64,000 nucleotides of DNA from Mesotoga infera (GTDB lineage: Bacteria > Thermotogota > Thermotogae > Petrotogales > Kosmotogaceae), in the NCBI RefSeq assembly GCF_900157305.1, contig NZ_LS974202.1:310001-374000 (forward strand), in the 5' to 3' direction. The notes below the pieces were generated by a model, which was not told the DNA's origin, searched no databases, and worked only from the letters and a program-made list of their open reading frames with translations. The position numbers were made by a program, and so were the translations under genes. This document shows, one piece after another, positions 3,672 to 30,100 of this stretch. How positions within the stretch are numbered: position 1 is the stretch's first letter; every line of letters starts with the position of its first letter.

Positions 3672-4544
3672 CTACTCTATGTTCTGTACTTGCTCCCTCA
3701 GCTTGTTCACCAGAGTCCTGCCCTCAACAGATAGAGCAGATATTTCGAGCTTCTTCGATTTCGAAGCCACCGTCGATAACTCCCTATGCAACTCCTGACA
3801 AATAAAGTCCAGCTGCACGCCGCAGTCGTCGTCGTTGGAGAGAATTTCCCTGAAAGAAGCGATATGAGAATCCAGTCTCACCAACTCTTCTGATATATCG
3901 GCCTTTTCAGCCAGAAGAACCACTTCCTGCTCAAGCCTGTTCTCTTCGAGCTCTCCATCGAAAAGCTTTTCGACTCTCTTTTTAAGAAACTCTCTGTAGT
4001 AACCCACCATACCGTCCGACATCTCTTTCAACTGCGATGAGATTTGTTGTAACTTATCGAGATAATCTTCCAGGGCCTTCAAGAGGTTGAGTCCTTCCCG
4101 TTCGCGATCGCGATTGAGTGATTCCAGAGCTTTTTCCAGAACTGGAACCACTGCGTTCCACACTCTTCTCGCCAGTTCTTCCGAGGGCCTACTCCTGAGT
4201 ATTTCCTTGAACCTCGTCATAGAATCTATCGAAACCTCTCCGTCGAGGCCAAGCCTTTCGGCTATCGCCTTCAGAGAGGTGTAGATCGATATTGCCGTGC
4301 CAAAATCCGGCTTCAAAAGACCGCTGTCTTCAATGAGCGAAATCTCCACTCTGGCTTTCACAGTACCCCTTTTGATTCGTTCCTTTATATACCTTGAAAC
4401 ATCGAGTTCCAGTTCGGCAAAGGTCTCCCCCGAGTTAACGTCGAGGTTCAGGTACTTCGAATTAACTGTCTTGAGTTCGACAAGAACGTTAATACCGTCA
4501 ACCACACTCTCGGCTCTTGAATAACCGGTCATACTTCTGATCAA
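3672..4544 (-). CDS. yicC: YicC-family endoribonuclease
   Basis: YicC proteins are endoribonucleases acting on small and messenger RNA. This one has 290 residues, the family length, with the N-terminal signature IRSMTGYSRAE and the C-terminal DUF1732 region DISEELVRLDSHIASF, then DFICQELHRELSTVASKS. I chose TTG at 4542-4544, with GAGGTG 7 nt upstream, giving the family-typical N-terminus. The ATG four codons later would cut into the motif. A promoter (4584-4612) lies just upstream, so yicC probably opens the operon yicC-remA-gmk-rpoZ. Confidence 0.93.
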   Translation of the reverse strand: MIRSMTGYSRAESVVDGINVLVELKTVNSKYLNLDVNSGETFAELELDVSRYIKERIKRGTVKARVEISLIEDSGLLKPDFGTAISIYTSLKAIAERLGLDGEVSIDSMTRFKEILRSRPSEELARRVWNAVVPVLEKALESLNRDREREGLNLLKALEDYLDKLQQISSQLKEMSDGMVGYYREFLKKRVEKLFDGELEENRLEQEVVLLAEKADISEELVRLDSHIASFREILSNDDDCGVQLDFICQELHRELSTVASKSKKLEISALSVEGRTLVNKLREQVQNIE

Positions 4545-11383: not shown

Positions 11384-12211
11384 TTATCTGAGGATACTCG
11401 CCAGATAACCGACCGTACGGTATCTATCGCCTATAATTTCGCCGCTGGAAGTGTTTTTGAGAACTTTCATTTCCGTGAACATACTTCTTACCGCAACCAT
11501 TGGTCCCAATCCACAGGCACTTATACGTTCTTTTCCGGCCAGGCTGTACGCTTCTTCGTATTTCCCGTCTACCAGAAGCTGGACCAGTCTGGAATCCTTC
11601 TTCATCGTTGTTTCGTGAGGCTCGTAGTGGTTAAGGTCAGAGGAGGCTATTATCAACAAATCCTCTCTATCGCCTATAGAATTCTTTACTATATCGCCCA
11701 GAATCAGTGCTAGCTCAAGCCTCTGATCAGTCATCACGATCGGAACTATGCTTATTTGAGAATAGACGTACTGGAGGAAGGGAAGCTGCACTTCTATTGA
11801 ATGCTCGTAGAGATGCGCCGACGTATCTGCCTGAATCAGGCCCTTAGAGTTGTCTATCAGCTTTCTGCAGAGATCTTCATCGATACCCACTTCTCCAAAA
11901 GGAGTCGACCAGGCCCCATCAGTCCAGATAGACAGTCTGGTACCTAGTCCAGTATGATTTGGACCCACTATCAAGACAACAGCCGGTTGAACCAACAGAG
12001 AGGCTTCGTAGTATCCCCAGGCCGCCACGGGGCCGCTGGCCATATAGCCGGCATGGGGTACTATGAGACCGGACAATCCTCTCTTCTGCCCTCCGCCGGT
12101 CGGCAACATCCCCGGACCGGCCGGGTGCAAAAAGCAATTTTTTATCTGAATCTTTAGATCCTCGCTGTCGCCGGCGTAAAACTTTCCGCTGACAACGGGT
12201 TTTCTCGTCAA
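11384..12211 (-). CDS. MEMO1-family protein (AmmeMemoRadiSam system protein B)
   Basis: This 275-residue protein is of the MEMO1/AMMECR1-associated family, related in fold to class III extradiol dioxygenases. The conserved His and acidic motifs are present: VPHAGYMASGPVAAWGY (His53), VGPNHTGLG, EHSIEVQLPFLQY and IASSDLNHYEP. In many prokaryotes it occurs with AMMECR1 and a radical-SAM protein as the AmmeMemoRadiSam trio, but neither partner is next to it here. The enzymatic activity of prokaryotic members is not firmly known. The start codon overlaps the secretin stop by 4 bp (12208-12211), so the two are probably translated together. Confidence 0.9.
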   Translation of the reverse strand: MTRKPVVSGKFYAGDSEDLKIQIKNCFLHPAGPGMLPTGGGQKRGLSGLIVPHAGYMASGPVAAWGYYEASLLVQPAVVLIVGPNHTGLGTRLSIWTDGAWSTPFGEVGIDEDLCRKLIDNSKGLIQADTSAHLYEHSIEVQLPFLQYVYSQISIVPIVMTDQRLELALILGDIVKNSIGDREDLLIIASSDLNHYEPHETTMKKDSRLVQLLVDGKYEEAYSLAGKERISACGLGPMVAVRSMFTEMKVLKNTSSGEIIGDRYRTVGYLASILR

Positions 12212-15200
12212 GGCTGTACCACCTCCGCCGTGATGAAGATAACAAGCTCTCTCTTATCGGTGGTCTTGGTCTCGGTGGTGAAAAGCTTACCGATGAATGG
12301 CAGATCGCTCAAGAAAGGCATCTTGTTGACATTCACGGAGTCTTTGTTTGCTACCAGTCCACCGATTGTCAGTGTATTGCCATCACCAATCACAAGTTTG
12401 CTCTTGGCCTCTCTGGTCTTTTCACCGTAGAGCGTTCTGGTGCCATCGACATATTTCTCGGGTTCGCTGACCTTTATATAGAGGTCGAGAAGAATCTTCC
12501 CATCATCGTTGACCGTGGGAGTTATGCGTAACTCGACACCGGTGTTGAGATTCTCTATGGTCTCGATTTCCACCGGCCGACCATCGACGTACTCTATCTT
12601 TTTCACCAGATATGGTATGGTGTCTCCTATATGAATGGTCGCCTCTTCACCGCTCATCGAAACTATCGAGGGGCTGGATATAAGGTCGGAATCAGCGTCT
12701 CTATCCTTGAGATCGGCACTGATGTTGGCATTTGCAGTGTTCACTATGCTGTCCAGTATCTTCGAGATATCGAGGTTTTCGAAGATCTTGAAATTCAGAT
12801 CGATAGAACCGTTCTGGATTATTACATCGGGATTCGTGATTTCCAAGGACGTGGTGAAATCTCTCTGCATCTCATCCACTAACGACTTATCCACTAGTTT
12901 GGTCTCTATTCTGACCTGCTTCTTCGGTTTGGCCAGAGAACTGGCGATTTCGTCGAATATGCTGTCCACTTTGGACTTTGCGAGCCCTCTAACTACTATG
13001 TAACCGTTGACCGGGTCGGAAAGAACCTCTCCGCCGTAGAATTCGATCAGTTTCGTCACTTCTTCGACGTTGTGGTAAACGCGATATACGAGCTCTATGT
13101 CCGTCGCTTCCTGACCGGACTTCTGTTCCTTCTTAGTTACGGCGTATATATTGTCTATCCTGCTTATGGAGACGGGTTTCGTAGCGTTGATAACCTTAAC
13201 CAGACTTTCCCAATCGATCTCTTTGACGGACATGGTTATGTTTTCATCTATCACATCTATGAACAGCAAGGGAATATCGAGCTTTCCCGCTACGACTCTA
13301 AGCAACCTTTCGAGGTCCTGGTTAACCACATCTATGCCAATCTTTGACCCGCTGACTGTAACACCCTTCTCGACTGGATCCACGGCCTTCCTGGACTCTT
13401 GAACATTCTTTATCATCGCTTCGGCGTTGTCTAGAACCATTGAGCTCTTGGATTTAAGAAGTATCATCTGCAGGTTCTCGAAGGTCTGTACCGTCAGGCC
13501 ATCTATAGCTTCTCTGAGCAGAGAGGCGAGCTCCTGAGGATCTACCGTTAGATCAGTAACGTATCTGGATATCTCTCTGTCGGCCGCTGCTTCTTCAATC
13601 GTTTTTGTTAATTTCATCAGGGAATCCGGATCTCCTATGAGCAGCCATTGTTTATCCAGTTCCACGAACTCCGCCTTCAGGTTCAGTTTGCTTATCATTT
13701 CCGAGAGTTGAATCTGCGTCACCAGACCTTTGTCGATCCTAACGGATTCTCTGGCCGCCTTGTTGGCAATGAACAGGAGCGCTTCCTCGGCCATAGCCAG
13801 GTCGTTCTGAGCACCTATTCCAACTATCCTGCCTGCATATTCGATCACCGAACCCAACTTTATACCGGCGGCTTCAAGGTAGTTCTGAATATCCACCACA
13901 CTCCATCCACCAATCACCGGAAGCTCATAAAAAGTTTGTTTCCCGCTTCCATTCTCTTCCATGGAAGTGCGAAGTTTTTCTAGAAGGTTTGTGGAAGCTT
14001 CGATAGCGTTCGCCTTGCCTACAAATATCAATCTTCCGCTGAACTTTCCAATCGTTACCTTTATGCCTATCTCTTCGAGAATGTTCCGTAAAGCCTCCAG
14101 ATCAAGCTCCTTTTCAAGTGTAGGACTAAGGGCAACAATACTATAATCCAGGAGCTTTTCGCCGGCACCGGCCGCCTGGAAAATCACGGTTATCAGATTC
14201 TGTACATCCTCGGCGGCACCAACCAGCATATAGCGAGATGGACTCACCTGAATTATAGAAACGTCCAGTAAGAGATCTTCGGCCATTCTCTGTAGAATTT
14301 CGGGATCCAGGTTCTCGGGAAGGTCTACGTACTCGAAGTGTACACGCTGGTTGTCGTCTATGTAATTAACAGCCGCCTGTGCCAGATCGATCGATTCTGT
14401 ATCGCCTACCAAAAGATATCCACCGCTCACATCGTATATTCCTGCGAGTCCTATTCCCTTGGCGGTGAGATACATGTTTAGAGTAACTGAATCTATTCCA
14501 GTGATGGCTTTGATGAACCTGAACTGGTTTATCACACCAGTTTTCTCAACGACCAGTCCTTTAAGAATCTCCTCGAAACTCTTCAAGTCCTTTTCCGTTC
14601 CTATCATGAAGACTCTATCACCGACGATCTGGAACTTCAACTTCAATTCCATCAAGCCCGCGATCGTTTCGAGCTGGCCGATCTCAGTTCCGACCGGCAT
14701 TGCGAAGGTTACATACGATATCGATCCATCGGTCGATGTACCGCTCGCGTCGATGCCGATGCGGAGTGAAGATATCAACTGCTGTCCCTTGCTAAGGGAG
14801 TCTTTTGTACCTACCATGATGGCGTAATCGCCGGCTTCTATCAATCGAATAGGTATCTGTATGGACTCGAAGGCCGTCTGGAGCTGCCCGATAGTTAAAT
14901 TCTTGGGCAGTATCGTGATAGTATAGGATAGCGGCTCTTCGGTACCGCCAATGTCTTTGGACAGCGATTCGAAGACATCCAGCGCAGCTTTTACACCCCC
15001 TTCACTACCGGTGAAAACCATCCAGTCCTCGTTTTCCAGGATTTCAACAGATATCCCGATGAGCCTGAACAGCTGACCCAACAACTGCGTCGTTACTCCT
15101 TCCTTTATTTTCACGATTTCGTAGGTGTTTCTCTCACCGGTATCGCCGGTGGAAACCATTATCAATTTTTCAAGAAGCGACTCAGCTTCGTCCAGAGATT

Positions 15201-18200
15201 CGGTCTTTCCGGCGAGTAACAATACATTACCCACTTGCAAGAGTTCGAGTTCGATACCGGTCTTTCCCAGCGCCTTTTCCACATCGAATAACGTGAATCC
15301 CGACGGCAAAGAAAGTAGCCTGTATGCCTTCTCCACAGATTCGGCCGATTGTTCGGGTCTGAAGATCTCGACGAGTCTCCTGGTCTCTTCTATGTCCGCA
15401 ATACTTCCCGTTACGAGGAGTTTATTGCCGTTCCTGATGATAGTGCTGGGGATCTTCAAGGAATTTATAGCTTCGTTCACAACGTCGATATTCATATCAG
15501 CCGGTACGTCGATGACCTCATAAGCGAGCTTCATCACCTCGGGCCTGCTACTGGTGCCATGTAAATCGCTTATTACACTTACGACCTTCGGCAGAGATTG
15601 TGGATCTCCCACCAGAATTAGCACATTACCGACCTGCGTGAGATCGGCCTCAAGGCCTATCTTTTCGAGAATGCCAGAGAGAGATGCAAGATCGAAGCCT
15701 GTCGGCATCGAAATCGTCGTATACTCTCTGGTAACATACTGCACCGGAACTTCCTCTGGTCTGAACTCTGAAAGCAATTTCTCGGCCAGAGCGTTCTCTT
15801 CACTAGTTCCTACGAAGACTATAGAATCGGAAACCTGGACGATCCTGGATGATATCTTGAGCGAATCCAGCAGCGATTCGAACTCGGTCAGTCCTACACC
15901 GGACGGAAGCGAGGATATCTTGTAGGAGACCGTCTCTTTGCTTCCGCCTTCCAGAGCGCCCGATATATTAGTCATAAGACTCTTGAAGGAATCCACACTG
16001 CCCGTAGTTCCTATAACTACAATATTCCCGGCAACCGGGATCATCTCCACGTTCAATCCGAGCCTCTCGGCCAGGAGACCGGCTTCTTCCATTGTCAAAG
16101 TCTCTGGAAGTGCAACGACGGAGTAGATCTTCTCAATGTCTTCTAGGGCTTCCTCCGGTCTCAAATACTCAACGATATCACCCGCTTTTCTGAGATCGCT
16201 GTCAGGACCAATCAACATCAAGCGACTATCGATCTGAACTGTGGATATGCTCAGGCCCATATCGGTCATTATCTTCTGGAACTTTTCGAGGGTTAATTCC
16301 GCGGGCAGATCGATAAGAGTGTAGGAAAGGGCCTTCCCAAGTCCGCTCCTGATAATTTCGTCGAGCATAGCAATGGCCATTTTCACGTCTTCTTCAGGCC
16401 CCGAGATAGACATGCTCTGTCCGAGTCTCGTGTAGGAGAGGTTGAATCCAGAAGACAAAAGTGTATCGCGCAACTCTTCAAATTCCATACCTGAAGGAAT
16501 GGCGTAAAGCTCAGTTGCTTTCTTGATCTTTATATCCAGATCGTCAAGAAGAGCTTTCACCTTCTCAAGATCCTTTCGAACACCAATCAGAAGATAACCC
16601 CGACTACTCTCCTGGAAAACCAGAACATCCACATTCATGGCCTGCAGGAAATTGCCCAGGATTTCTCCAGTCCAACCTTCAAGCAAAGGATAGAAGGCAA
16701 CAGTGGTCTCAGTTGCAGTAGAAGTGGAATCGATCTTTTTCAAGAGATTCTTGAGGGAGTTCAGTTCCGACGGTTTGCCGACGGCGACTATGCTATCTCC
16801 TTCACCGTAAACTTTGATGTTTATCCCCATACTCGCCAAGATTTCTCTCAAATAATCCAGGTCAACTCCAACGTTCGTGAGCGTCTCTATCTGTGGAGCT
16901 TCTTCTGCCGGCTGTTTGACAGCAACCTCGTTCAATATGCTCCTCAGATTCGATATATCCTGTTCCTTACCGTATACTACGAAACTGTTTCTCATTTCAA
17001 ACACCGAAACATCGAGTTTCAGGGTCTCCTTGATACCGTTTAGCTCTTCGAGGGTGACCTCTCTGGGAACTATCGCGGTTATTCTGTGCTCATCGACGAT
17101 ATCGTTCCTGATAGTCAAGAATCTTTCCAGTTCACTCTGAGTGCCGATCATCACCAGCTTTCCAGCGACAGAAAGGGGATAAACGTTCAGGTTGAACGCT
17201 GAGATCACAGACTGAGCTGCTGCAAGATCGAACCCGTCTCTGATTTCTAGTGCGAGGTAGCTCTGCACCCCGGGAACTATTTGAGCCTCTCTTCTAGACA
17301 GAATAGAGGTTGCCGTTTCCCTGGCTCTATCTATCGCTCCTTGTACACCTACCACGATCGTACCCGTCGGGGTACCAAGGATGTCCACCGTAATGCCAAG
17401 TCTTTCGAAGATCGCTTTGAAATTCTCGATCTCCTCGGTTGGAATGTCTATGAACGTGAAGAGAATTTGATCCCCTGTCTGTGTGATCTCAACATCTTCT
17501 TTCAGTTCATCTAAGACCTTCAATGCCTGCAAAATGTCTCTCTCTGGACCTATAAGCATGGTCTTTCCATCTGTTATGACAACGGTGACCGAGAGTCCCA
17601 TTCTTTCGAAGAGAAGTTCCAAATTTTGAACTGAGGGAAGTGAATCCACAATTCTGTAATGAGGTTTCTCCAGTCCGGTCAGTCTCGAAAGCTCTTTCTG
17701 TATCCTGTCCAGTACTCCCGATGGACCTACAATCAGATAGCCCGATTGGATGGAAGTTATACTTATCTTTGCCCAATCCTTTTCTCCGAGATAGCTTCTG
17801 AGATAAGTGGTCAGTTTTCCTTCTTCCCAGCCGACTAAATTGTTGAACAATCTCGATTCCGTCGTCTCGTCTATTTCCAATTTGGAAAGTATTGATTGCA
17901 CTACTTCTAAAGCCTTGTCAGTCTCAAGCTCTTCACCAACAAGAATTACTCCCGAAGGCGAAGAAAGCAGTTTCACCGGGAGCTTCAGGTTATCGAGAAT
18001 ATTCGAGAATTCATCCATTTTGTCGATCGGTATTTCCGTAAAGACATACTTCAATTTTTCGTCGACGGCTATCACATCGGTTCGGTCGCTTATGGAACTT
18101 ATTATATCTACGGCCGAATCGATTGCCTCTCTGTAACCCACAATAATCATGTTGTTTCCATAACCGATAACGGTGACGGCTATTTTCATCTCTTCGAGTA

Positions 18201-21200
18201 CCTGCCTGACGATTTCCAGTACTTGAGAGCCGGCCTCCAGAATTGTGTACTCGTATTCACGCGAAGCGACAGGTGATTCAACATCTCTTCTTAGCATCTG
18301 GATCAGATCCACCGTTCTAGTAACGCTCTCCTTCTTCCCGACCACGAGGTATCTGTCCTCTATCGGGAGAATGGTGACTTTCAGGCCCAGTCTCTCCAGC
18401 AGTGTGCCAAGCTCTTCTATCGCAGGCAGCTTCTCTTCCACTATGTAGTACGGGTCTTCTATGCTCGTCAGTCTCGTCGCTTCCTTCTCCATCCTGTCGA
18501 GTACTTCCTGTGGTCCTATCACTATGTATCCGCCAGTGGACGGAGTTATGGATATCCTTCCGAAATCATCCTCCCCAAGGTAGTCCCTGAAGTAACCCGA
18601 ATACTTGTCGTCGCTCCAGCCCGGAACCACTGACAGCACGGTCGAGACTCTGACACTCTCCCCAACCTTGCTCTCTATCTCTTCCTCCCTCGCCAGTATC
18701 GCGTTGATTATCTCCACCGCGCTCTTGACAGCCTTCTCCTCTCCTATTACCAGCACTCCTGAGGGTGAAGAGAGAAGATCCACTTCGTACCCCAGTCTCT
18801 CGAGTATCCCGCCGTAGCTTTCTATCTGCGAGCTCTCGACTCCCACGAAAGAGTAGGTCACTTTCTTCTCCACAGGTGTCTCTTTCAATCTCTCTGCTAT
18901 CGGCGTAAGCAGTTCACGCCCCGCTTCCAGATCCTTGCTGGAGCCTATCATCACAACGTTGTTGCCTATCTGGATCAGCTGTACCTTCACCTTCAACTCT
19001 TCCAGTGTTCTCTCCAGTGAGTCTATGTACTGGGCTTCTATCTCCACGAATTCGAAGCCCTGCGGCTCTTCCACCGCAGGTTGCATCCCAGCCTTCAGCG
19101 TTGAGATGAATTGTGAGGCCTTCTCCACGCTCTCCTTCTTCCCGACCACGAGGTATCTGTCCTCTATCGGGAGAATGGTGACTTTCAGGCCCAGTCTCTC
19201 CAGCAGTGTGCCAAGCTCTTCTATCGCAGGCAGCTTCTCTTCCACTATGTAGTACGGGTCTTCTATGCTCGTCAGTCTCGTCGCTTCCTTCTCCATCCTG
19301 TCGAGTACTTCCTGTGGTCCTATCACTATGTATCCGCCAGTGGACGGAGTTATGGATATCCTTCCGAAATCATCCTCCCCAAGGTAGTCCCTGAAGTAAC
19401 CCGAATACTTGTCGTCGCTCCAGCCCGGAACCACTGACAGCACGGTCGAGACTCTCCTTGGCTGTTCTCCGGCCGAACTCATCTCTACTTCTTTTGCAAG
19501 AACCGCATTCACAGTTTTCAGAGCCTTTTCGACCTTTTCTCCCGTCCCCACGATCAGGACGCCCGAAGGCGATTGCATCAGTTCAACACCGGCTCCAATT
19601 TTATTCAATATGGCCTGGTAGCTTTGAATATCGGCCAATGGAATTTCTGTAAATGTATAAACTGGCTCCTCAACCTGAGGGCTGATCCTCTTACTCATTA
19701 TATCCGCGACTATACTGGAGGCCTTTTCTATTGTAGATCCAGTTCCTATGGCGACCACACCCGAAGGTGAAGATAGTAGTGATACATCTACTCCCAGTCT
19801 ATCCAGTATCTCCTGGAGACTCGCAGTGTCTTCATCTGGAATATCTAGAATCCTGTACTCCAGAGGTTCTTCCTCCACTGTCTCTACAATTAACGATCCC
19901 AGAAGTCTATTCAATATCTCTCCGGCCCTCTGAACCGCATCTGATGAACCGATTATTATCGCCGAACTGCCCATCGGAACGAGATCTACTACTACACCTA
20001 GCCTGGCCAGTAATCCCGTTAGATCCTCAACGGGCGGTAGTTTCTCCTTCACAACGAACTCGGGATCTTCAAATTTTCTAATTCTTTCTAGTTCGCTCTC
20101 TATAGGTTCTTTGAGATCTAGAGGCGTGAGAACTACATATCCACCGACCGATTCGAGAATCGATATCCTGGCGAAGTCATCGGCACCCAGGAAGAAACGC
20201 GCGTACTGTCCGAAATCTTCTGTGGTCCATCCTGGAATGTTTTTTATCTCTATCGATACTCTACTTTCACGATCTATCTCCTGTGCCTGAAGGCTCTTGT
20301 AGAGAGACTTGAACTTCACGAGATCTTCTTCGCGCCCGATAGCTATGAGTTTGTCGGAGATGCCAAGCAATGAAATATCGTATTCAAATGTCTTCAGTAA
20401 CGGCGTTAAAGCTTCTACACTGAGTCCCTGGGTCAGTGGTAGCAACAGGTAGCTCTCGTGTTTCTCTTTCTGTGGGATTTCGGGAACTTCTCTCGACATC
20501 AGCGAGTCGATTAGGCCGATGGCTCTCGAAAGCTCCTGTGGAGCCCCGATGGCGATGACGCCAGTTGGGGTTTCAAGAAACTCAACCTGTATTTCGAGTT
20601 TCTGCATGACCGGTAACAGTTGATCTATCAGAGGTGCTTCGATATCCACGAATCTGTAGTCAGGTTCGGGTTTTGAGTAGAGGCTCTCACGGTGTTTTAA
20701 AATTGATTCAATGACACCTGACGCCTCTTCCAGTCGATCGGCCTGACCTATAACTATCGCTCCCGAGGAAATTCCCACTATATCCACCGGAATGTCAAGT
20801 TTATTGATCACTGACGCGAGAACCGGTATATCTTCGGGTATTGTCTCGATCAGGGTGAAGCCAAGTTCTGCCGGAGGTTCTTCCTGGGTAGCACTGTCAG
20901 GATAGATAGTCTCGACTATCTGATGTAAAATATCAGAAGTGCTGATCACGTTTTCTTTTGTTCCAACGATCAAGTATCTGTCTTCCAGAACTATTATGTT
21001 GACTTTTATACCGAGCGTAGCTAATAACTGCTCGAACTTGTCAAGGGCGGGAATGCTCTTCTCTATGGTGAAGAAGGGGTGCTCTAGCTGGGCCAGTCTC
21101 GAAATCTCCGTTTCAAGTTTCTTCACTGTCTCCTCCGGACCGACTACGATGTAACCTCCAGCTGAAGGTGTGAGCGAGATCCTAGAGTACTCGTCTTCCC

Positions 21201-24200
21201 CGAGGAAGTCGCGGAAATAGTCGAAAGTCTTCTGTTGATCCCAGCCCGGAACCACCGACAGCACGGTCGAAACTCTGACACTCTCCCCAACCTTGCTCTC
21301 TATCTCTTCCTCCCTCGCCAGTATCGCGTTGATTATCTCCACCGCGCTCTTGACAGCCTTCTCCTCTCCTATTACCAGCACTCCTGAGGGTGAAGAGAGA
21401 AGATCCACTTCGTACCCCAGTCTCTCGAGTATCCCGCCGTAGCTTTCTATCTGCGAGCTCTCGACTCCCACGAAGGAATATCCGATTTTACCCTCCGCAG
21501 TATTGTCAACTATCTGTGCTGAAACATCGTCCAGGATCTCTTTTGCGGCATTTACTTCTTTCTCTAGACCGACGATCACCATGTTGTTTCCCGCTTCTAT
21601 CAGTCCAACTTCGATCTTCAGACTGGAGAGGATACTTTCTACAACGCCCTTAAACTGAGGATTGACATCGGAAAATCTGTAAACGTACTTCACATCACCT
21701 GTATCCAGATCTGTCTTGAGTGTGTCGATCAGCTCTCCGGTTTTAATTACATCGCTCTCGGTGCCGACGATAAGATTTTTCTCTCCTACCGGTAGGATGT
21801 TTACGTTCAACCCAAGTCTTTCCAAGAGTCTGCCTAGCTGATCAACCGGTGGCAGAGCATCCTTTACCAGATAGAAGGGGTCCTCTATCTCCGACAATCT
21901 GACGACTTCGGTCTGTATCTTCGTCAGAGTTCTCTCCGCTCCTATGACTATAAAGCCGCTAAAGGAAGGGGTTATGGAGATTCCGGCAAATTCGCCCTCT
22001 CCAAGGAGGCTTCTGAAGTAATCTGTGAATTTGTCCTCCGTCCAGCCCGGTATATTTTTTACGATCATCGATACTCTTTGACGTTCATCACTCTGGACAA
22101 TGGTTTTCGCTTCACGTTCCAGTATGGCCTCTATTATCGGTCTGGCTTTATCTATATCTTCTTCGGTTCCTATAAGAAGGACACCAGCTGGAGAGGAAAA
22201 GAGTTCGACATTCAAACCAAGTCGCTTCAGAATCTCGCCGTAAATGGCAACGCCATCTGAAGGTATATCGACAAACTCGTACACTATCGAAACTTCTTGC
22301 GAGGGTTTCCTTTCCAGAATATTGTTGGCTATTTCGAGCGCCTTGTTCACCTGGTCTTCCTTGCCTACGATCAATATTCCTGCAGGAGATTCAAGGAGCG
22401 CAACCTCTATATCTATACTATCGAAAATAGGCACGAAGTACTCCATATCTCCGGAAGTTATGGCGGATAATTTGAAAATCTGTGGTTTTGTCTGCTCTGG
22501 AACTCCCAGAGTGTCAACCAATTTAGTTATCAGCTCGCGCGCTTTGGCAACGTTCTCCGAAGAACCGACCACGACACTGTAGTCTTCTACCTTAAGTATA
22601 TCGACGATGATTCCCAGTCTCGCGAGGAGGTTGTCTATTTCCGTTATGTTTGGCATTCTCGTTTCTATGGAATAAGAGGGATTCTCGATCCTTGAAAGCC
22701 TTTCGAACTCTTCGCTAATTGCACCTGTCATCGATCCGGGAGCGTTCAATATATATCCTTTGGAAGTCTGGATCAGAGAGATCTCTTCTACCTTTTCGCC
22801 AAATACAACTCTTAGGTAAGCAGCGAGCCTGGTAGGATCCCAGCCGGGTATACCGGGTAGCTCTACGCTCACTCTGGCATCTTCAACACTTTCACTGGAG
22901 AGAATCTCTCCGTAAAGCGCGTTGAAGCTGTTTAAGTCGTATCTGTCTCCGACCGCAACGATCTTGTCGTACACTGGAGTGAAGGTAAGATCGTATCCGA
23001 AGACCTGCACAACTGATTTGAGCGAATCAATGCTGATGTCGCTTCTACCACGGAATATCATATACCCCGTTTCTTTATCGCCCTGAGTAGGGGTAACCGA
23101 CTCTTTTTTAAGAAGATCCTCTACCAGTTTTTTGACGATTCCCAGATGGACGTCGCTTCCAATACCAACGATTCCGGAAGGGGTATCAACGAAATCCACT
23201 TCGATCTTCAGTTTCTCGACAATCGTTTTGAGGCTTTCGAGAGAGCCGGGGTCCACATCCACGAGGCTGTAGCCAATAGGACCGGTTTCAAGAGGTTCAA
23301 GCCTTGAAAGTATTGATTCCACCACTTCCATGGCCTTCTTCAACCTTTCTTCAGGGGCGACTGCGGCAACTCCGGTTGGTGTATTCACGAACTCAACGGG
23401 TAAGTTCAATTTCTCGAGAAGCTCTGATAGACCAGCTACTTCTCCATAAGGGATGTTTACGAAAGCGTAGTTGTAAACGGTACCGGGAACTGTCACTTCT
23501 CCTCCGACCGGCAGGCCGCTGCCAAGCTGACTTATAAGTCGGGAGACCTCTTCCACGTTTTCCTGAGATCCGACAACCATGAACTGATTATCTACGGGAA
23601 TTATTGACACAGCGATGCCCAGTCTCTCGAGAAGCGACTCGAATTGACTCAAGGACGGTATCGACGACTCAAGTCTATAAAAAGGATTCTCAAGCATTCT
23701 GAGCTTTTCGGCCTCACCATCCACCGTGTTCAAAAGACTTTCCGGTCCTACTACTATAAATCCGTTTCCAGACCTTGTAACTGTGATAGTTGCAAATTCA
23801 TCCGGTCCGAGAAAGTCTCTTAGATATGTCTGGAATTTATCGAGGTCCCAGCCTGGTATCGAACCTATCTGAAGAGAAATTCTGGCTTCCTGTTCCGAAA
23901 GATTTTTCTCGATCATTTCGACTATCCTGGGGACTCTTGTCTCTATGATTTTCGCCAATTCCGAAAGTCTTTCCGGATAACCCCTCAGAACTATCAATCC
24001 TGCGGATCTGATGAATACCTTCGATTCCTCGGGATTCAAGAGTGTATCTATCAGCTCTCCCAAGCCCGAGTCATAGATCTCCGGAGCCACTTCGAGTATA
24101 AGATCTTCGGTTTTTCTGAATATCTGTTTCTCTCTGTTCTCCAGTTCCACCAGGGCTTCATCGAGTATATCCGAGGGAGCATAGATGTAAATGAGTTTTT

Positions 24201-25848
24201 CGGATATCTGCTCCAGAGAATACTCGTCAACAACCAGACCTCTTGAAGCGAAATAGGAGTCGAAAAAGCTCTTGACCTCGTTGAAAGTGTTTTCTGCTTT
24301 GAGCTCTATATAAGTGTTCCTGTAATCTTCAAATGTGATTCCTGTGAAAAGGCTCAAAACGTACTGAGCCGTTTCTATGGAAGCTTTCGAACCTTTGATT
24401 ATGTACCCTTTCTTCTCGCCTATGGTCTCGATTACGGCACCTGTGATTTTTTCGACTTGCGATATCGTTTCTTCAACAACGGGCATATGGTACTTTATCA
24501 CCGAGTAAGTAACCCCTTCGGATATCTTGCTAAACGATTCCATAGTCTTTTCGACGAACTCGACCAGGTATTTCGGCAGATCGAAGGTCACTTTTCCAAC
24601 CGGTTCGAACGTCCTGTCAACGGTTACACTATCTTTGGAATAGCTCTGGAGAAGGTTCAAAATCGTTCCAACTATCGTACCGTCGCCTGGTAAGCCTGAA
24701 CCGGAACTACTGCCAAGTCTCAGAACGTCTTCCACTAGAAAGAAGTTTTCCGGCAGAGTGTAGGTTATCCTGATCCTGCTCGAATCGAGTTTCTCGGACG
24801 TGAGATTCTTCCTGTAGAGCTCCAGGTATTCGAGAAGCTCATCGACGTATTTACTGTTGCCAGAAAGTATTATCCTGTTGAACTGCGGTATAGTACTTAT
24901 GGTGACGGAATCGGAGAAGAGAATGGAGTTTAGCTCTCTTGCAAGCGTTTCGTAAGCCGTCAGTGGCTCAACTCCGGTTGATGTTGCCTCAGAAGGCGCA
25001 GTAAACTCTTTCGTGACAATGTTGGTGGTAAGTAAAGATGAAAGCATGAAATGTGTCTGGAGATCTCCAAATACCATCAGCGAGGCTTCGTTTGGTAGAT
25101 ATTCTATGAAACTGTTTACGGGAAGCGTCTTTCTAAGTCTTTCCACCTGCTCCGAGACCGTTTCTCCATCGACATTGAACTCCACACCGATATAAGTTCT
25201 CCAGAAAGTGTTGACCAGTTCTCTCACTTCATCGGGAGTACCCAGATAAAAAGTACCGTCGCTCAAATATGCATATGCCACCTTGTCACCGAGCGAGGTT
25301 AGGATGTTTCGAAGTATCTCTTCTGGTAGAGCCAGGTTGAAGCCTACAAGTATCTTCTCGTCTCTCACGCTTGGTGAGAGTATGTAAGAAAGGTTCAATA
25401 TCTCCTCTGAAAAGAGATAGGTCATCGCGCTGGCGATGGTCATTCCGTAAGTTGTGAATTTATCTATATCCACCTCGGCACTCGACCGGAAAAACCTTAT
25501 GATCACAACGTTTTCCCTTACGATGATTTCCGGTTCGACTCTAGCGGGTGTGAGCAATGCGGTATTAACTGAGAGTCGTGACGGTTCCTGCCTGATCCAC
25601 AAACCTTCAACCGGTCCCATCCGAAGAGGAAGATTCATATCCTTCCCATTCACACCGTTCAGAGAAAGCGAGTATATCGTCTTCGACGGGTTTGACTGGA
25701 TGTTGTACGATTCGACGAACGGTTCGTTGAAGACCAGAGTAAGGGTAACGGATTCAACATCCATCGAAGGAATAACCGAACCCAGTTGATTCGAAAATGC
25801 TAAAGCGATGGCGCTCAGAACCACGAAGAGAACCGCGACTTTTCTCAC
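12208..25848 (-). CDS. Giant modular secretin (about 4,546 residues)
   Basis: This is a secretin, the outer-membrane channel of type II secretion and type IV pilus machines, roughly six times the usual length. I chose GTG at 25846-25848. GGGGTGA precedes it and it gives a clean signal peptide (MRKVAVLFVVLSAIALAFSN). An in-frame TTG at 25890 overlaps the upstream stop and would add 14 residues. After an AMIN-like beta domain (about 35-125) come about 59 tandem modules of roughly 70 residues. Each has a strand-helix-strand-strand-helix pattern such as LERLGYEVDLLSSPSGVLVIG, quoted in part. In the first 60% they recur as four-module blocks marked by PGW near the block start. The end is conventional: an N0/STN-like domain (about 4150-4230), an N1-like domain (VNGYIVVRG) and the secretin core with MPFLSDLPFIGKLF and ELVIFITAEVV. 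There is no lipobox. Confidence 0.93.
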   Translation of the reverse strand: MRKVAVLFVVLSAIALAFSNQLGSVIPSMDVESVTLTLVFNEPFVESYNIQSNPSKTIYSLSLNGVNGKDMNLPLRMGPVEGLWIRQEPSRLSVNTALLTPARVEPEIIVRENVVIIRFFRSSAEVDIDKFTTYGMTIASAMTYLFSEEILNLSYILSPSVRDEKILVGFNLALPEEILRNILTSLGDKVAYAYLSDGTFYLGTPDEVRELVNTFWRTYIGVEFNVDGETVSEQVERLRKTLPVNSFIEYLPNEASLMVFGDLQTHFMLSSLLTTNIVTKEFTAPSEATSTGVEPLTAYETLARELNSILFSDSVTISTIPQFNRIILSGNSKYVDELLEYLELYRKNLTSEKLDSSRIRITYTLPENFFLVEDVLRLGSSSGSGLPGDGTIVGTILNLLQSYSKDSVTVDRTFEPVGKVTFDLPKYLVEFVEKTMESFSKISEGVTYSVIKYHMPVVEETISQVEKITGAVIETIGEKKGYIIKGSKASIETAQYVLSLFTGITFEDYRNTYIELKAENTFNEVKSFFDSYFASRGLVVDEYSLEQISEKLIYIYAPSDILDEALVELENREKQIFRKTEDLILEVAPEIYDSGLGELIDTLLNPEESKVFIRSAGLIVLRGYPERLSELAKIIETRVPRIVEMIEKNLSEQEARISLQIGSIPGWDLDKFQTYLRDFLGPDEFATITVTRSGNGFIVVGPESLLNTVDGEAEKLRMLENPFYRLESSIPSLSQFESLLERLGIAVSIIPVDNQFMVVGSQENVEEVSRLISQLGSGLPVGGEVTVPGTVYNYAFVNIPYGEVAGLSELLEKLNLPVEFVNTPTGVAAVAPEERLKKAMEVVESILSRLEPLETGPIGYSLVDVDPGSLESLKTIVEKLKIEVDFVDTPSGIVGIGSDVHLGIVKKLVEDLLKKESVTPTQGDKETGYMIFRGRSDISIDSLKSVVQVFGYDLTFTPVYDKIVAVGDRYDLNSFNALYGEILSSESVEDARVSVELPGIPGWDPTRLAAYLRVVFGEKVEEISLIQTSKGYILNAPGSMTGAISEEFERLSRIENPSYSIETRMPNITEIDNLLARLGIIVDILKVEDYSVVVGSSENVAKARELITKLVDTLGVPEQTKPQIFKLSAITSGDMEYFVPIFDSIDIEVALLESPAGILIVGKEDQVNKALEIANNILERKPSQEVSIVYEFVDIPSDGVAIYGEILKRLGLNVELFSSPAGVLLIGTEEDIDKARPIIEAILEREAKTIVQSDERQRVSMIVKNIPGWTEDKFTDYFRSLLGEGEFAGISITPSFSGFIVIGAERTLTKIQTEVVRLSEIEDPFYLVKDALPPVDQLGRLLERLGLNVNILPVGEKNLIVGTESDVIKTGELIDTLKTDLDTGDVKYVYRFSDVNPQFKGVVESILSSLKIEVGLIEAGNNMVIVGLEKEVNAAKEILDDVSAQIVDNTAEGKIGYSFVGVESSQIESYGGILERLGYEVDLLSSPSGVLVIGEEKAVKSAVEIINAILAREEEIESKVGESVRVSTVLSVVPGWDQQKTFDYFRDFLGEDEYSRISLTPSAGGYIVVGPEETVKKLETEISRLAQLEHPFFTIEKSIPALDKFEQLLATLGIKVNIIVLEDRYLIVGTKENVISTSDILHQIVETIYPDSATQEEPPAELGFTLIETIPEDIPVLASVINKLDIPVDIVGISSGAIVIGQADRLEEASGVIESILKHRESLYSKPEPDYRFVDIEAPLIDQLLPVMQKLEIQVEFLETPTGVIAIGAPQELSRAIGLIDSLMSREVPEIPQKEKHESYLLLPLTQGLSVEALTPLLKTFEYDISLLGISDKLIAIGREEDLVKFKSLYKSLQAQEIDRESRVSIEIKNIPGWTTEDFGQYARFFLGADDFARISILESVGGYVVLTPLDLKEPIESELERIRKFEDPEFVVKEKLPPVEDLTGLLARLGVVVDLVPMGSSAIIIGSSDAVQRAGEILNRLLGSLIVETVEEEPLEYRILDIPDEDTASLQEILDRLGVDVSLLSSPSGVVAIGTGSTIEKASSIVADIMSKRISPQVEEPVYTFTEIPLADIQSYQAILNKIGAGVELMQSPSGVLIVGTGEKVEKALKTVNAVLAKEVEMSSAGEQPRRVSTVLSVVPGWSDDKYSGYFRDYLGEDDFGRISITPSTGGYIVIGPQEVLDRMEKEATRLTSIEDPYYIVEEKLPAIEELGTLLERLGLKVTILPIEDRYLVVGKKESVEKASQFISTLKAGMQPAVEEPQGFEFVEIEAQYIDSLERTLEELKVKVQLIQIGNNVVMIGSSKDLEAGRELLTPIAERLKETPVEKKVTYSFVGVESSQIESYGGILERLGYEVDLLSSPSGVLVIGEEKAVKSAVEIINAILAREEEIESKVGESVRVSTVLSVVPGWSDDKYSGYFRDYLGEDDFGRISITPSTGGYIVIGPQEVLDRMEKEATRLTSIEDPYYIVEEKLPAIEELGTLLERLGLKVTILPIEDRYLVVGKKESVTRTVDLIQMLRRDVESPVASREYEYTILEAGSQVLEIVRQVLEEMKIAVTVIGYGNNMIIVGYREAIDSAVDIISSISDRTDVIAVDEKLKYVFTEIPIDKMDEFSNILDNLKLPVKLLSSPSGVILVGEELETDKALEVVQSILSKLEIDETTESRLFNNLVGWEEGKLTTYLRSYLGEKDWAKISITSIQSGYLIVGPSGVLDRIQKELSRLTGLEKPHYRIVDSLPSVQNLELLFERMGLSVTVVITDGKTMLIGPERDILQALKVLDELKEDVEITQTGDQILFTFIDIPTEEIENFKAIFERLGITVDILGTPTGTIVVGVQGAIDRARETATSILSRREAQIVPGVQSYLALEIRDGFDLAAAQSVISAFNLNVYPLSVAGKLVMIGTQSELERFLTIRNDIVDEHRITAIVPREVTLEELNGIKETLKLDVSVFEMRNSFVVYGKEQDISNLRSILNEVAVKQPAEEAPQIETLTNVGVDLDYLREILASMGINIKVYGEGDSIVAVGKPSELNSLKNLLKKIDSTSTATETTVAFYPLLEGWTGEILGNFLQAMNVDVLVFQESSRGYLLIGVRKDLEKVKALLDDLDIKIKKATELYAIPSGMEFEELRDTLLSSGFNLSYTRLGQSMSISGPEEDVKMAIAMLDEIIRSGLGKALSYTLIDLPAELTLEKFQKIMTDMGLSISTVQIDSRLMLIGPDSDLRKAGDIVEYLRPEEALEDIEKIYSVVALPETLTMEEAGLLAERLGLNVEMIPVAGNIVVIGTTGSVDSFKSLMTNISGALEGGSKETVSYKISSLPSGVGLTEFESLLDSLKISSRIVQVSDSIVFVGTSEENALAEKLLSEFRPEEVPVQYVTREYTTISMPTGFDLASLSGILEKIGLEADLTQVGNVLILVGDPQSLPKVVSVISDLHGTSSRPEVMKLAYEVIDVPADMNIDVVNEAINSLKIPSTIIRNGNKLLVTGSIADIEETRRLVEIFRPEQSAESVEKAYRLLSLPSGFTLFDVEKALGKTGIELELLQVGNVLLLAGKTESLDEAESLLEKLIMVSTGDTGERNTYEIVKIKEGVTTQLLGQLFRLIGISVEILENEDWMVFTGSEGGVKAALDVFESLSKDIGGTEEPLSYTITILPKNLTIGQLQTAFESIQIPIRLIEAGDYAIMVGTKDSLSKGQQLISSLRIGIDASGTSTDGSISYVTFAMPVGTEIGQLETIAGLMELKLKFQIVGDRVFMIGTEKDLKSFEEILKGLVVEKTGVINQFRFIKAITGIDSVTLNMYLTAKGIGLAGIYDVSGGYLLVGDTESIDLAQAAVNYIDDNQRVHFEYVDLPENLDPEILQRMAEDLLLDVSIIQVSPSRYMLVGAAEDVQNLITVIFQAAGAGEKLLDYSIVALSPTLEKELDLEALRNILEEIGIKVTIGKFSGRLIFVGKANAIEASTNLLEKLRTSMEENGSGKQTFYELPVIGGWSVVDIQNYLEAAGIKLGSVIEYAGRIVGIGAQNDLAMAEEALLFIANKAARESVRIDKGLVTQIQLSEMISKLNLKAEFVELDKQWLLIGDPDSLMKLTKTIEEAAADREISRYVTDLTVDPQELASLLREAIDGLTVQTFENLQMILLKSKSSMVLDNAEAMIKNVQESRKAVDPVEKGVTVSGSKIGIDVVNQDLERLLRVVAGKLDIPLLFIDVIDENITMSVKEIDWESLVKVINATKPVSISRIDNIYAVTKKEQKSGQEATDIELVYRVYHNVEEVTKLIEFYGGEVLSDPVNGYIVVRGLAKSKVDSIFDEIASSLAKPKKQVRIETKLVDKSLVDEMQRDFTTSLEITNPDVIIQNGSIDLNFKIFENLDISKILDSIVNTANANISADLKDRDADSDLISSPSIVSMSGEEATIHIGDTIPYLVKKIEYVDGRPVEIETIENLNTGVELRITPTVNDDGKILLDLYIKVSEPEKYVDGTRTLYGEKTREAKSKLVIGDGNTLTIGGLVANKDSVNVNKMPFLSDLPFIGKLFTTETKTTDKRELVIFITAEVVQP
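18323..18651 (-). repeat. Exact 329-bp direct repeat, copy 1 (inside giant secretin)
   Basis: Compared base by base by eye, this segment is identical to 19127-19455 (offset 804 bp). It encodes about residues 2400-2509, two modules of types A and B. The identity stops abruptly at both ends: at 18322 versus 19126 and at 18652 versus 19456. Confidence 0.95.
18647..18849 (-). repeat. Exact 203-bp direct repeat, copy 1 (inside giant secretin)
   Basis: Identical to 21272-21474 (offset 2625 bp). It encodes about residues 2334-2401 and begins with SSQIESYGG. Its end at 18647-18651 overlaps the 329-bp repeat by only 5 bp, so 18323-18849 is a mosaic of two other copies. Confidence 0.95.
19127..19455 (-). 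repeat. Exact 329-bp direct repeat, copy 2 (inside giant secretin)
   Basis: Identical to 18323-18651. It encodes about residues 2132-2241. No synonymous difference is visible over 329 bp, so the duplication or conversion is recent. Confidence 0.95.
21272..21474 (-). repeat. Exact 203-bp direct repeat, copy 2 (inside giant secretin)
   Basis: Identical to 18647-18849. It encodes about residues 1459-1526. The flanks remain similar but carry scattered differences (for example gtcgaa here against gtcgag in the other copy). Confidence 0.95.
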
Positions 25849-28523: not shown

Positions 28524-28904
28524 TCAGTATGTCACCTTACCCGTTACGGGTTGTATCGTAAGAACAGTATCATTCTCAAAGTATAGCGTTGTCGAACCAC
28601 TGAGTATCGCTATCGAACCTTCGCCATTGAAGATTATCCTGAAGTCCTCCAGATTTTTCCACAGACAGTTCTCTAGCAAATCCCCGGTGTTCGAGTAAAG
28701 CTTTCGCTGCCTGTAATTATATATTAACTCAACGGTCTTAGATCTTCTGACAGCCTTCAGTCTCTGGTTTTCGAGAAAGCAATCGAGTTCCACCTTACTC
28801 AACTCTATCGACAAATTGGAGATCGCTTCTCCCGAAAAAGCCATTATACAACCCATACATATGCCGACTATGGCCAGACAACATACAAGTTCCACTACAC
28901 TCAT
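28524..28904 (-). CDS. Pseudopilin-like protein without a leader peptide
   Basis: The 126-residue product begins MSVVELVCCLAIVGICMGCI. This resembles the mature N-terminus of type IV pilins and pseudopilins (FTLIELLVVIAIIG): a hydrophobic helix with Glu at position 5. Here the Glu is at residue 5 counted from the start Met, so no positively charged leader or Gly(-1) is encoded. The C-terminal part is a small beta-rich domain (SIAILSGSTTLYFENDTVLTI). It overlaps the GspF/PilC stop by 4 bp. I checked in-frame codons upstream and found no better start in the last dozen codons. Three Cys occur in the helix. Confidence 0.6.
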   Translation of the reverse strand: MSVVELVCCLAIVGICMGCIMAFSGEAISNLSIELSKVELDCFLENQRLKAVRRSKTVELIYNYRQRKLYSNTGDLLENCLWKNLEDFRIIFNGEGSIAILSGSTTLYFENDTVLTIQPVTGKVTY

Positions 28905-30100
28905 CCAATACTCTGCTCCATCGCGAATATCGTGTTGTACATGGTGTAAGCCAGAAACCCTATAAATCCTCCTATGAATATGATCATAATAGGCTCTACA
29001 AGGGAAACAAGTTTCTTAAGTGAGCTCTGAACCTGCGTGTGATAGAAGTCGGCCACCTTAAACATGACCTCGTCGAGCTTTCCTGTTTCCTCGCCCGTCG
29101 CGACCATACTAACCACAATCGCCGGAAAGACTTTCTGCTGGCCCAGAGCAACGTGGATGCTTTCACCGGCCTTGATCTGGGAAATCGAAATCTGTATGGC
29201 GTGCTCCAGAGAAGGACTCTGAGAGACCTGACCGGCAAGTTCTAGTACCGTCGGTAAATCGACACCACTGGCAACCAGAACCGCGGTCGTTCTGGTGAAC
29301 CTTTCCATGGCCGTCATGTTTCTCAACTTTCTTATAGGAGGTATGATTTTTCCAAAGATTTCTTTGACATAGTTGCCGTATTTACTTTTAAAGAAAAGCC
29401 ATCCACCGACTAAAATACCGACCAGTCCAAGCAGAATGAAAAGCCAGTGAGATTTAAGAATACCATTTATGCCCAGAAGAATCCCCATCACTCCCGTTGG
29501 CTTGAAATTACCTCCGAAAGCGCTGATCAGGTTGGGCAATATGAAAAAAGAAATTATTCCCACGATACCGACCGCGAAAACCATCATGAACAGTGGATAG
29601 GCCATTGCAGATTTTACTTCGTTCTGCAATTCGACCATGCCTTCGTAGAACTCTGAGACTCTCTGGAGCGATTCGTCCAGTACACCTCCGGTCTCCCCCG
29701 CTTTAACCAGGTTGGTGAAAAGAGGCTCGAAGACTCCAGATTTTTCCAGCGATTCGTTGAAACTCATACCGCTCTCTATATCCAGAATAACTCTGTTTAT
29801 AATTTTCCTGAACCTTCGGCTGAAGAGCACTTGAGTTGAAAGAACCTGAAGCGCATCCCTTATTCTGACCCCTGAAGAAACCATTGTCGATAGCTGCCTC
29901 GCGAATAGACTAACCTCTTTAGGAGAAAGAGGAAAGATCGAAGTACGCACATTGTTCTGAGATGCGATCGGCCTTATTGCGCTCACCGTGTAACCTCTGC
30001 CCGAAAGGATTTGAAGGGCATCGAGTTTGGAGTTGGCGGTCAGCTTTCCTTTTTCGGGTTTACCCTTACTGTTTATGACTTCGTATCTAAAGTCAGGCAT
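28901..30100 (-). CDS. Type II secretion/type IV pilus platform protein (GspF/PilC family)
   Basis: This 399-residue inner-membrane platform protein has two T2SSF domains. An N-terminal ARMAN-like region (YEVINSKGKPEKGKL) precedes domain 1 with FARQLSTMVSSGVRIRDAL and ESGMSFNESL. A membrane pair follows (about residues 170-235), then domain 2 with RFTRTTAVLVASGVDLPTVL and VATGEETGKLDEV. A final span (PIMIIFIGGFIGFLAYTMY) follows. In pilus and T2SS machines it couples the hexameric ATPase to pilin insertion. It overlaps ispF by 8 bp and the pseudopilin by 4 bp. No ATPase gene is present nearby. Confidence 0.93.
   Translation of the reverse strand: MPDFRYEVINSKGKPEKGKLTANSKLDALQILSGRGYTVSAIRPIASQNNVRTSIFPLSPKEVSLFARQLSTMVSSGVRIRDALQVLSTQVLFSRRFRKIINRVILDIESGMSFNESLEKSGVFEPLFTNLVKAGETGGVLDESLQRVSEFYEGMVELQNEVKSAMAYPLFMMVFAVGIVGIISFFILPNLISAFGGNFKPTGVMGILLGINGILKSHWLFILLGLVGILVGGWLFFKSKYGNYVKEIFGKIIPPIRKLRNMTAMERFTRTTAVLVASGVDLPTVLELAGQVSQSPSLEHAIQISISQIKAGESIHVALGQQKVFPAIVVSMVATGEETGKLDEVMFKVADFYHTQVQSSLKKLVSLVEPIMIIFIGGFIGFLAYTMYNTIFAMEQSIG

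Follow-up and report, generated by a model that had tools for sequence, protein, structure and literature searches.

A giant PilQ-type secretin with 59 N1-like modules in Mesotoga infera, a candidate spacer between cell wall and toga

Why would a bacterium place dozens of repeated modules ahead of the pore of a secretin? The question is raised by one gene in a stretch of 64,000 nucleotides of the Mesotoga infera genome (contig NZ_LS974202.1, positions 310,001 to 374,000), which is called the window here and whose numbering is used for all positions unless another is named. A first-pass annotation, made from the letters of the window, had read this gene as a giant secretion channel whose modules keep a pore in the toga connected to an inner-membrane machine. 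We searched the literature for giant secretins and for Mesotoga ultrastructure, and no description of this secretin was found.

Results

Gene and reading frame

The gene lies on the minus strand, where one uninterrupted open reading frame runs from 25890 to 12208 and encodes 4560 amino acids counted from the first TTG; domain residue numbers follow this count. We prefer the GTG at 25848 as start codon, as GGGGTGA stands a few bases upstream and the orthologues have the start of their signal peptide at this point. From this GTG the protein has 4546 amino acids and a computed mass of 501 kDa. The first-pass annotation was thus exact in its coordinates, its single frame of about 4,546 codons, its signal peptide and its half megadalton per subunit, and had left the strand unstated. 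No cysteine occurs anywhere in the 4546 residues. The protein is the sole secretin of its genome, which is a single closed contig of 2,965,660 bp, 99.96% complete.

The first-pass annotation had itself raised the concern that so long a frame might be an assembly artefact, and an exact internal repeat of 329 nt (18323-18651, within the 268-aa insertion of Table 1, is identical to 19127-19455) could be taken as a sign of one. The same frame is, however, open in four other Mesotoga-clade genomes, the length differences among them are in frame, and dN/dS for the two closest of those orthologues was 0.096 over the full length and 0.026 within the core, so that purifying selection is strong. As the frame is open in the four relatives, neither chance nor assembly explains it, and we give an artefact or a pseudogene practically no credence. 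The module count of this species could still shift by one four-module block.

Domain architecture

The order of domains was confirmed as signal peptide, AMIN domain, N0-like domain, 59 N1-like modules, second N0 domain, N1 domain and a complete PilQ-type secretin core (Table 1). For the core, Pfam Secretin PF00263 matched residues 4398-4559 with 135 bits (E 2.4e-39, cut-off 27.5), and the top Foldseek matches of the C-terminal AF2 model were all secretins (E to 8e-22). Residues 4181-4558 covered positions 1-427 of the 428 in the NCBIfam PilQ profile TIGR02515, scoring 129.6 bits against a full-protein cut-off of 284, and the GspD model scored about the same (131.6 bits). Because the PilQ score was below its cut-off and the GspD model performed similarly, the assignment to PilQ rests also on the AMIN domain, the operon and the pilus genes. 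All the parts of a PilQ were found on one chain, AMIN by fold and N0, N1 and secretin by both sequence and fold. The second N0 domain was placed by VIA-align on the N0 domains of PilQ and InvG (Z 8.8-10), and the domain first described as AMIN-like was borne out by its fold, which matched the AmiC AMIN domain (Z 12.8, rmsd 2.2 over 100 residues) and PilQ B2 (Z 11.7).

Unit 1 of the repeat array is N0-like, judging from its collinearity with the Thermotoga orthologue: the two N-termini aligned by hhalign with E 5.6e-43, and Pfam STN matched the Thermotoga protein with E 8.7e-10. AF2 confidence was low at unit 1, and direct hhalign comparison of unit 1 with the C-terminal N0 gave no match. The domain order of the first-pass annotation needed correction: the canonical N0-N1 pair belongs to the outer-membrane end, and another N0-like domain stands at the end towards the wall. 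In hhalign unit 60 seemed to match N0 as well, a match that we set aside as spill-over of the alignment.

Table 1. Features of the secretin gene and its operon, in window coordinates
Feature	Position	Strand	Basis or remarks
Giant PilQ-type secretin gene	12208..25848	-	GTG start at 25848, 4546 codons; frame open up to 25890
Signal peptide	25795..25848	-	Residues 15-32; VRKVAVLFVVLSAIALAFS; aligned with orthologue starts
AMIN domain	25480..25794	-	Residues 33-137; all-beta in AF2; AmiC AMIN and PilQ B2 fold matches
N-terminal N0-like domain (unit 1)	25225..25479	-	Residues 138-222; collinear with Thermotoga N-terminus
Diverged modules 2-7	23890..25200	-	Residues 231-667; GspD/XcpQ N1-N2 matches, Z about 9
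Modules 8-38	17665..23889	-	Mostly super-repeats of four, with long PGW type-A modules
Modules 39-60	13387..17664	-	Residues 2743-4168; single type
Second N0 domain	13111..13353	-	Residues ~4180-4260; PilQ and InvG N0 folds; sequence match to PilQ N0 4ar0
C-terminal N1 domain	12865..13095	-	Residues ~4266-4342; PilQ profile, AF2, fold match
Secretin core	12211..12862	-	Pfam 2.4e-39; PilQ structures E 2.8e-58; secretin folds Z 13.6
Four-module insertion, 267 aa	21223..22023	-	Relative to four other Mesotoga-clade orthologues
Four-module insertion, 268 aa	18313..19116	-	Relative to four other Mesotoga-clade orthologues
Two-module insertion, 133 aa	15211..15609	-	Relative to four other Mesotoga-clade orthologues
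PilP/GspC-like protein, 146 aa	25887..26327	-	Position, one TM, HR-like C-terminus; without family match
PilO-like protein, 200 aa	26343..26945	-	Position and one TM
PilN-like protein, 193 aa	26942..27523	-	Position and one TM
PilM-like protein, 348 aa	27462..28508	-	Weak match to PilM TIGR01175 (E 0.0017); position
Prepilin-like protein, 126 aa	28524..28904	-	N-terminus MSVVELVCCLAIVGI
PilC/GspF platform protein	28901..30100	-	T2SSF E 7.9e-59

Number and fold of the modules

Tandem Repeats Finder detected no repeats at the DNA level, where the modules are too diverged, and they were therefore counted with protein HMMs. Iterated HMM tiling gave 59 contiguous units over residues 140-4100 with a median period of 67, in good agreement with the 59 or so repeats of roughly 70 residues counted in the first-pass annotation. 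One further N1-like unit was seen at residues 4107-4168 in the AF2 model; with unit 1 taken as N0-like, 59 N1-like modules thus lie between the two N0 domains. The longer PGW modules of type A occur at units 8, 13, 17, 21, 26, 30, 34 and 38, each opening one of the super-repeats of four.

Sequence comparison of module profiles with the PDB gave weak matches alone (KH domains, GspD and PilQ), and the module fold was therefore taken from AF2. The model of the C-terminal 711 residues (pLDDT 74.6, pTM 0.31) consists of repeated beta-alpha-beta-beta-alpha modules followed by N0, N1 and the secretin domain, and that of the N-terminal 898 residues (pLDDT 64.7, pTM 0.35) has a clear AMIN domain; at pLDDT 75 and 65, confidence in both is moderate. 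Together with fold searches, the models make the module a secretin N1-like or KH-like unit, as the first reading of its strands and helices had supposed, and not an unrelated fold. Pfam Secretin_N PF03958 scored 35.0 bits over the whole protein (cut-off 28.2), and single modules reached E<1 in 2 of 46 cases.

KH-domain structures were also among the fold matches of the modules. The repeats might accordingly bind DNA and offer an uptake surface in natural transformation, a role for which Neisseria PilQ, reportedly a DNA-binding protein, would be the precedent. We consider this very improbable: N1 and KH domains have a common fold but not a common function, and the protein is acid-rich (E 10.2% and D 5.7% versus K 5.4% and R 4.0%).

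Operon and genome context

The secretin gene is the last of a PilC-(prepilin)-PilM-N-O-P-like operon and is followed by a Memo gene. Its operon partners are of normal size, and the PilM-N-O-P proteins differ little in length from their Thermotoga counterparts. At other loci the genome encodes PilB- and PilT-like ATPases, and nine matches to the prepilin motif also lie elsewhere. Kosmotoga orthologues are flanked by the same gene order, which holds as well for as much of the Thermotoga locus as was examined. The machine is a type IV pilus; by its AMIN domain, its operon partners and these pilus genes, the protein is a pilus PilQ and not the generic secretion channel first proposed. The proposed link to an inner-membrane machine was upheld, as the operon ties the secretin to inner-membrane pilus genes. 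The PilB-like ATPase gene adjoins an FtsZ-like gene (genome positions 2391500-2395500).

Orthologues and module number

Orthologues were sought, as the first-pass annotation had suggested, in 103 Thermotogota genomes, and a secretin was present in 96. The core was delimited by length from the C-terminus; four Kosmotogaceae genomes (G020, G022, G032 and G033), whose secretin lies at or near contig ends, were left unsized. By protein length, most orthologues have roughly 2-16 modules and that of K. olearia about 31, counts which are estimates in distant species because the HMMs detect fewer units there. HMM detection gave 49 modules in four other Mesotoga-clade species and 59 here.

Among the four proteins with 49 modules, identity is 77-94% and every gap is shorter than 20. 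The giant secretin shares 58% identity with them and is set apart only by three in-frame insertions, of 267, 268 and 133 residues, equal to 4, 4 and 2 whole modules. Outside these insertions the modules pair one-to-one by position with those of the orthologues, except at units ~48-51 near the third insertion, where pairing was weak. Conservation was best at both ends of the protein and lower in the middle.

Several side observations were made in the survey. Many Thermotogota possess a second, short secretin (~360-430 aa), and none is present in the genome of the window. In one member of the same family (G018, 91% complete) SLH proteins were present and a secretin was not detectable. Frame changes between 11193 and 11997 interrupt the K. 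pacifica orthologue (L072:7069-14930, spanning ~2620 aa); they may reflect a true lesion or an error in sequencing.

Secretin length and toga depth

OmpA of T. maritima is an SLH coiled-coil spacer of the toga whose stalk has 316 residues for ~50 nm (PMC3387000), and its length served as a second ruler of toga depth. The homologue here, at 592 aa, is longer than that of the other Mesotoga-clade genomes (567 aa) or of Thermotoga (405-410 aa); its stalk of ~490 residues predicts a stand-off of ~70 nm. Secretin length rose with OmpA length across 23 genera (Spearman 0.88), and part of this correlation could stem from the choice of OmpA gene per genome, since the rule used (best SLH match below 800 aa) was set with the data in view. 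Independent contrasts on a core-domain tree gave r 0.58 (p 0.0035), with the same sign in just 14 of 22 contrasts; without Kosmotogaceae, r was 0.71 and the slope 0.81.

Genome size also correlated with secretin length in the whole set (rho 0.67). Outside Kosmotogaceae this fell to 0.24 (p 0.36) versus 0.73 for OmpA, so that genome size does not explain the length correlation there. Within Kosmotogaceae the secretin grew 2-3.5 fold against at most ~1.4 fold for OmpA, a point against the spacer reading discussed below. The wide periplasm supposed at the outset is in keeping with the parallel between secretin length and an independent ruler across the phylum. A further SLH protein of this genome (688 aa, genome positions 66000-70500) is fused to an apparent 5'-nucleotidase/metallophosphatase and is possibly a wall-anchored enzyme.

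Discussion

The modules as a spacer

As both ends of the protein are conserved, its middle is elastic by whole modules and its length tracks that of the toga spacer, we read the modules as probably a spacer that connects the two ends of the type IV pilus machine, one at the cell wall and one at the toga. Duplications, each of whole N1-like modules, would have lengthened the periplasmic part of PilQ. Its N-terminal AMIN and N0 domains would lie at the cell wall and the inner-membrane platform and its C-terminal N0, N1 and secretin domains would form a gated pore in the toga, with the 59 modules between them linking the two across a deep periplasm and guiding the pilus. The subunits are expected to oligomerise, the AMIN domain to bind polar peptidoglycan and the pilus to pass through, and, close to the pore at least, the modules may well form stacked rings. 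In M. xanthus, AMIN domains of PilQ bring the machine to the poles (PMC10653833), and it is at the poles that the toga balloons (PMC3387000), which makes a deep polar gap plausible.

Two forms of this spacer can be envisaged, and they divide its likelihood between them without adding to it. In the first, every module would belong to one of about 60 stacked rings, giving a rigid column of 6-7.5 MDa and well over 100 nm, placed at the poles where the toga balloons; its length would be set by module copy number and would evolve by two or four modules at a time, in parallel with toga depth. The fold is ring-forming, Thermus offers a six-ring precedent, and the four-module super-repeats with their type-A modules might act as gates or braces at regular intervals. 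At an assumed ~3 nm per ring, however, the full stack would measure 150-190 nm, compared with the ~70 nm predicted from OmpA. We hold this form only tentatively, as an overshoot of roughly twofold makes the stacking of all modules uncertain and a flexible leash a serious rival.

In such a leash, only N0, N1, the secretin domain and a few nearby modules would form rings, and the remaining modules would hang as 12-15 beaded strands, a slack tether from pore to wall that leaves the loose toga free to move. The array is about twice as long as the OmpA stand-off, the gaps of ~13 residues between modules are rich in P/G/S/T and charge, and the toga is loose and able to hold several cells (PMC5217533). 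A slack tether fits poorly with the fixation of 49 modules in four species and the position-by-position conservation of modules. The helix-to-next-strand linkers in the C-terminal AF2 model, mostly 4-8 residues, also speak against it, as does the superposition of three successive modules on the N-domains of XcpQ 4e9j (162 residues, rmsd 4.9, Z 7.6), a value within the range common by chance and thus supporting rather than decisive. On this evidence we regard the leash as somewhat unlikely.

For the spacer reading as a whole, the natural variants (~2-16, 31, 49 and 59 modules) and the OmpA ruler in the same cells make adaptation to envelope depth testable. A column of ~60 rings, if real, would be a ruler of periplasm width that could be read from the gene by counting modules, and the giant secretin points to the pilus as a link between the cell body and the toga.

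Comparison with known secretins

Within the phylum, the TM0088-type secretin of Thermotoga relatives, listed as pilQ (PMC5637354), is the orthologue: PilN-O-P-like genes lie upstream and a Memo-like gene downstream, and the order is likewise AMIN, N0, modules and secretin. With ~1285 aa and ~11 modules by length, however, it is not a giant. Neisseria, Vibrio and Pseudomonas PilQ (4av2, 6w6m, 6ve2) share the secretin core, N0, N1 and AMIN (B2) but lack a module array between AMIN and N0. The N1-N2-N3 domains of GspD/XcpQ in type II secretion share the module fold, but there are three of them, AMIN is absent and the operon is another. The nearest design is PilQ of Thermus thermophilus (757 aa, rings N0-N5), which also combines extra beta-alpha-beta-beta-alpha domains with a wide periplasm, its six rings measuring ~35 nm in a periplasm of 70 nm (PMC5745081, PMC4463427). 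In Thermus N0 is the terminal ring, whereas the giant secretin has a canonical N0-N1 pair beside the pore; and against the six rings of Thermus stand 59 modules plus N0 and N1, which, if they form rings, would raise the ring number of the known secretin design about tenfold.
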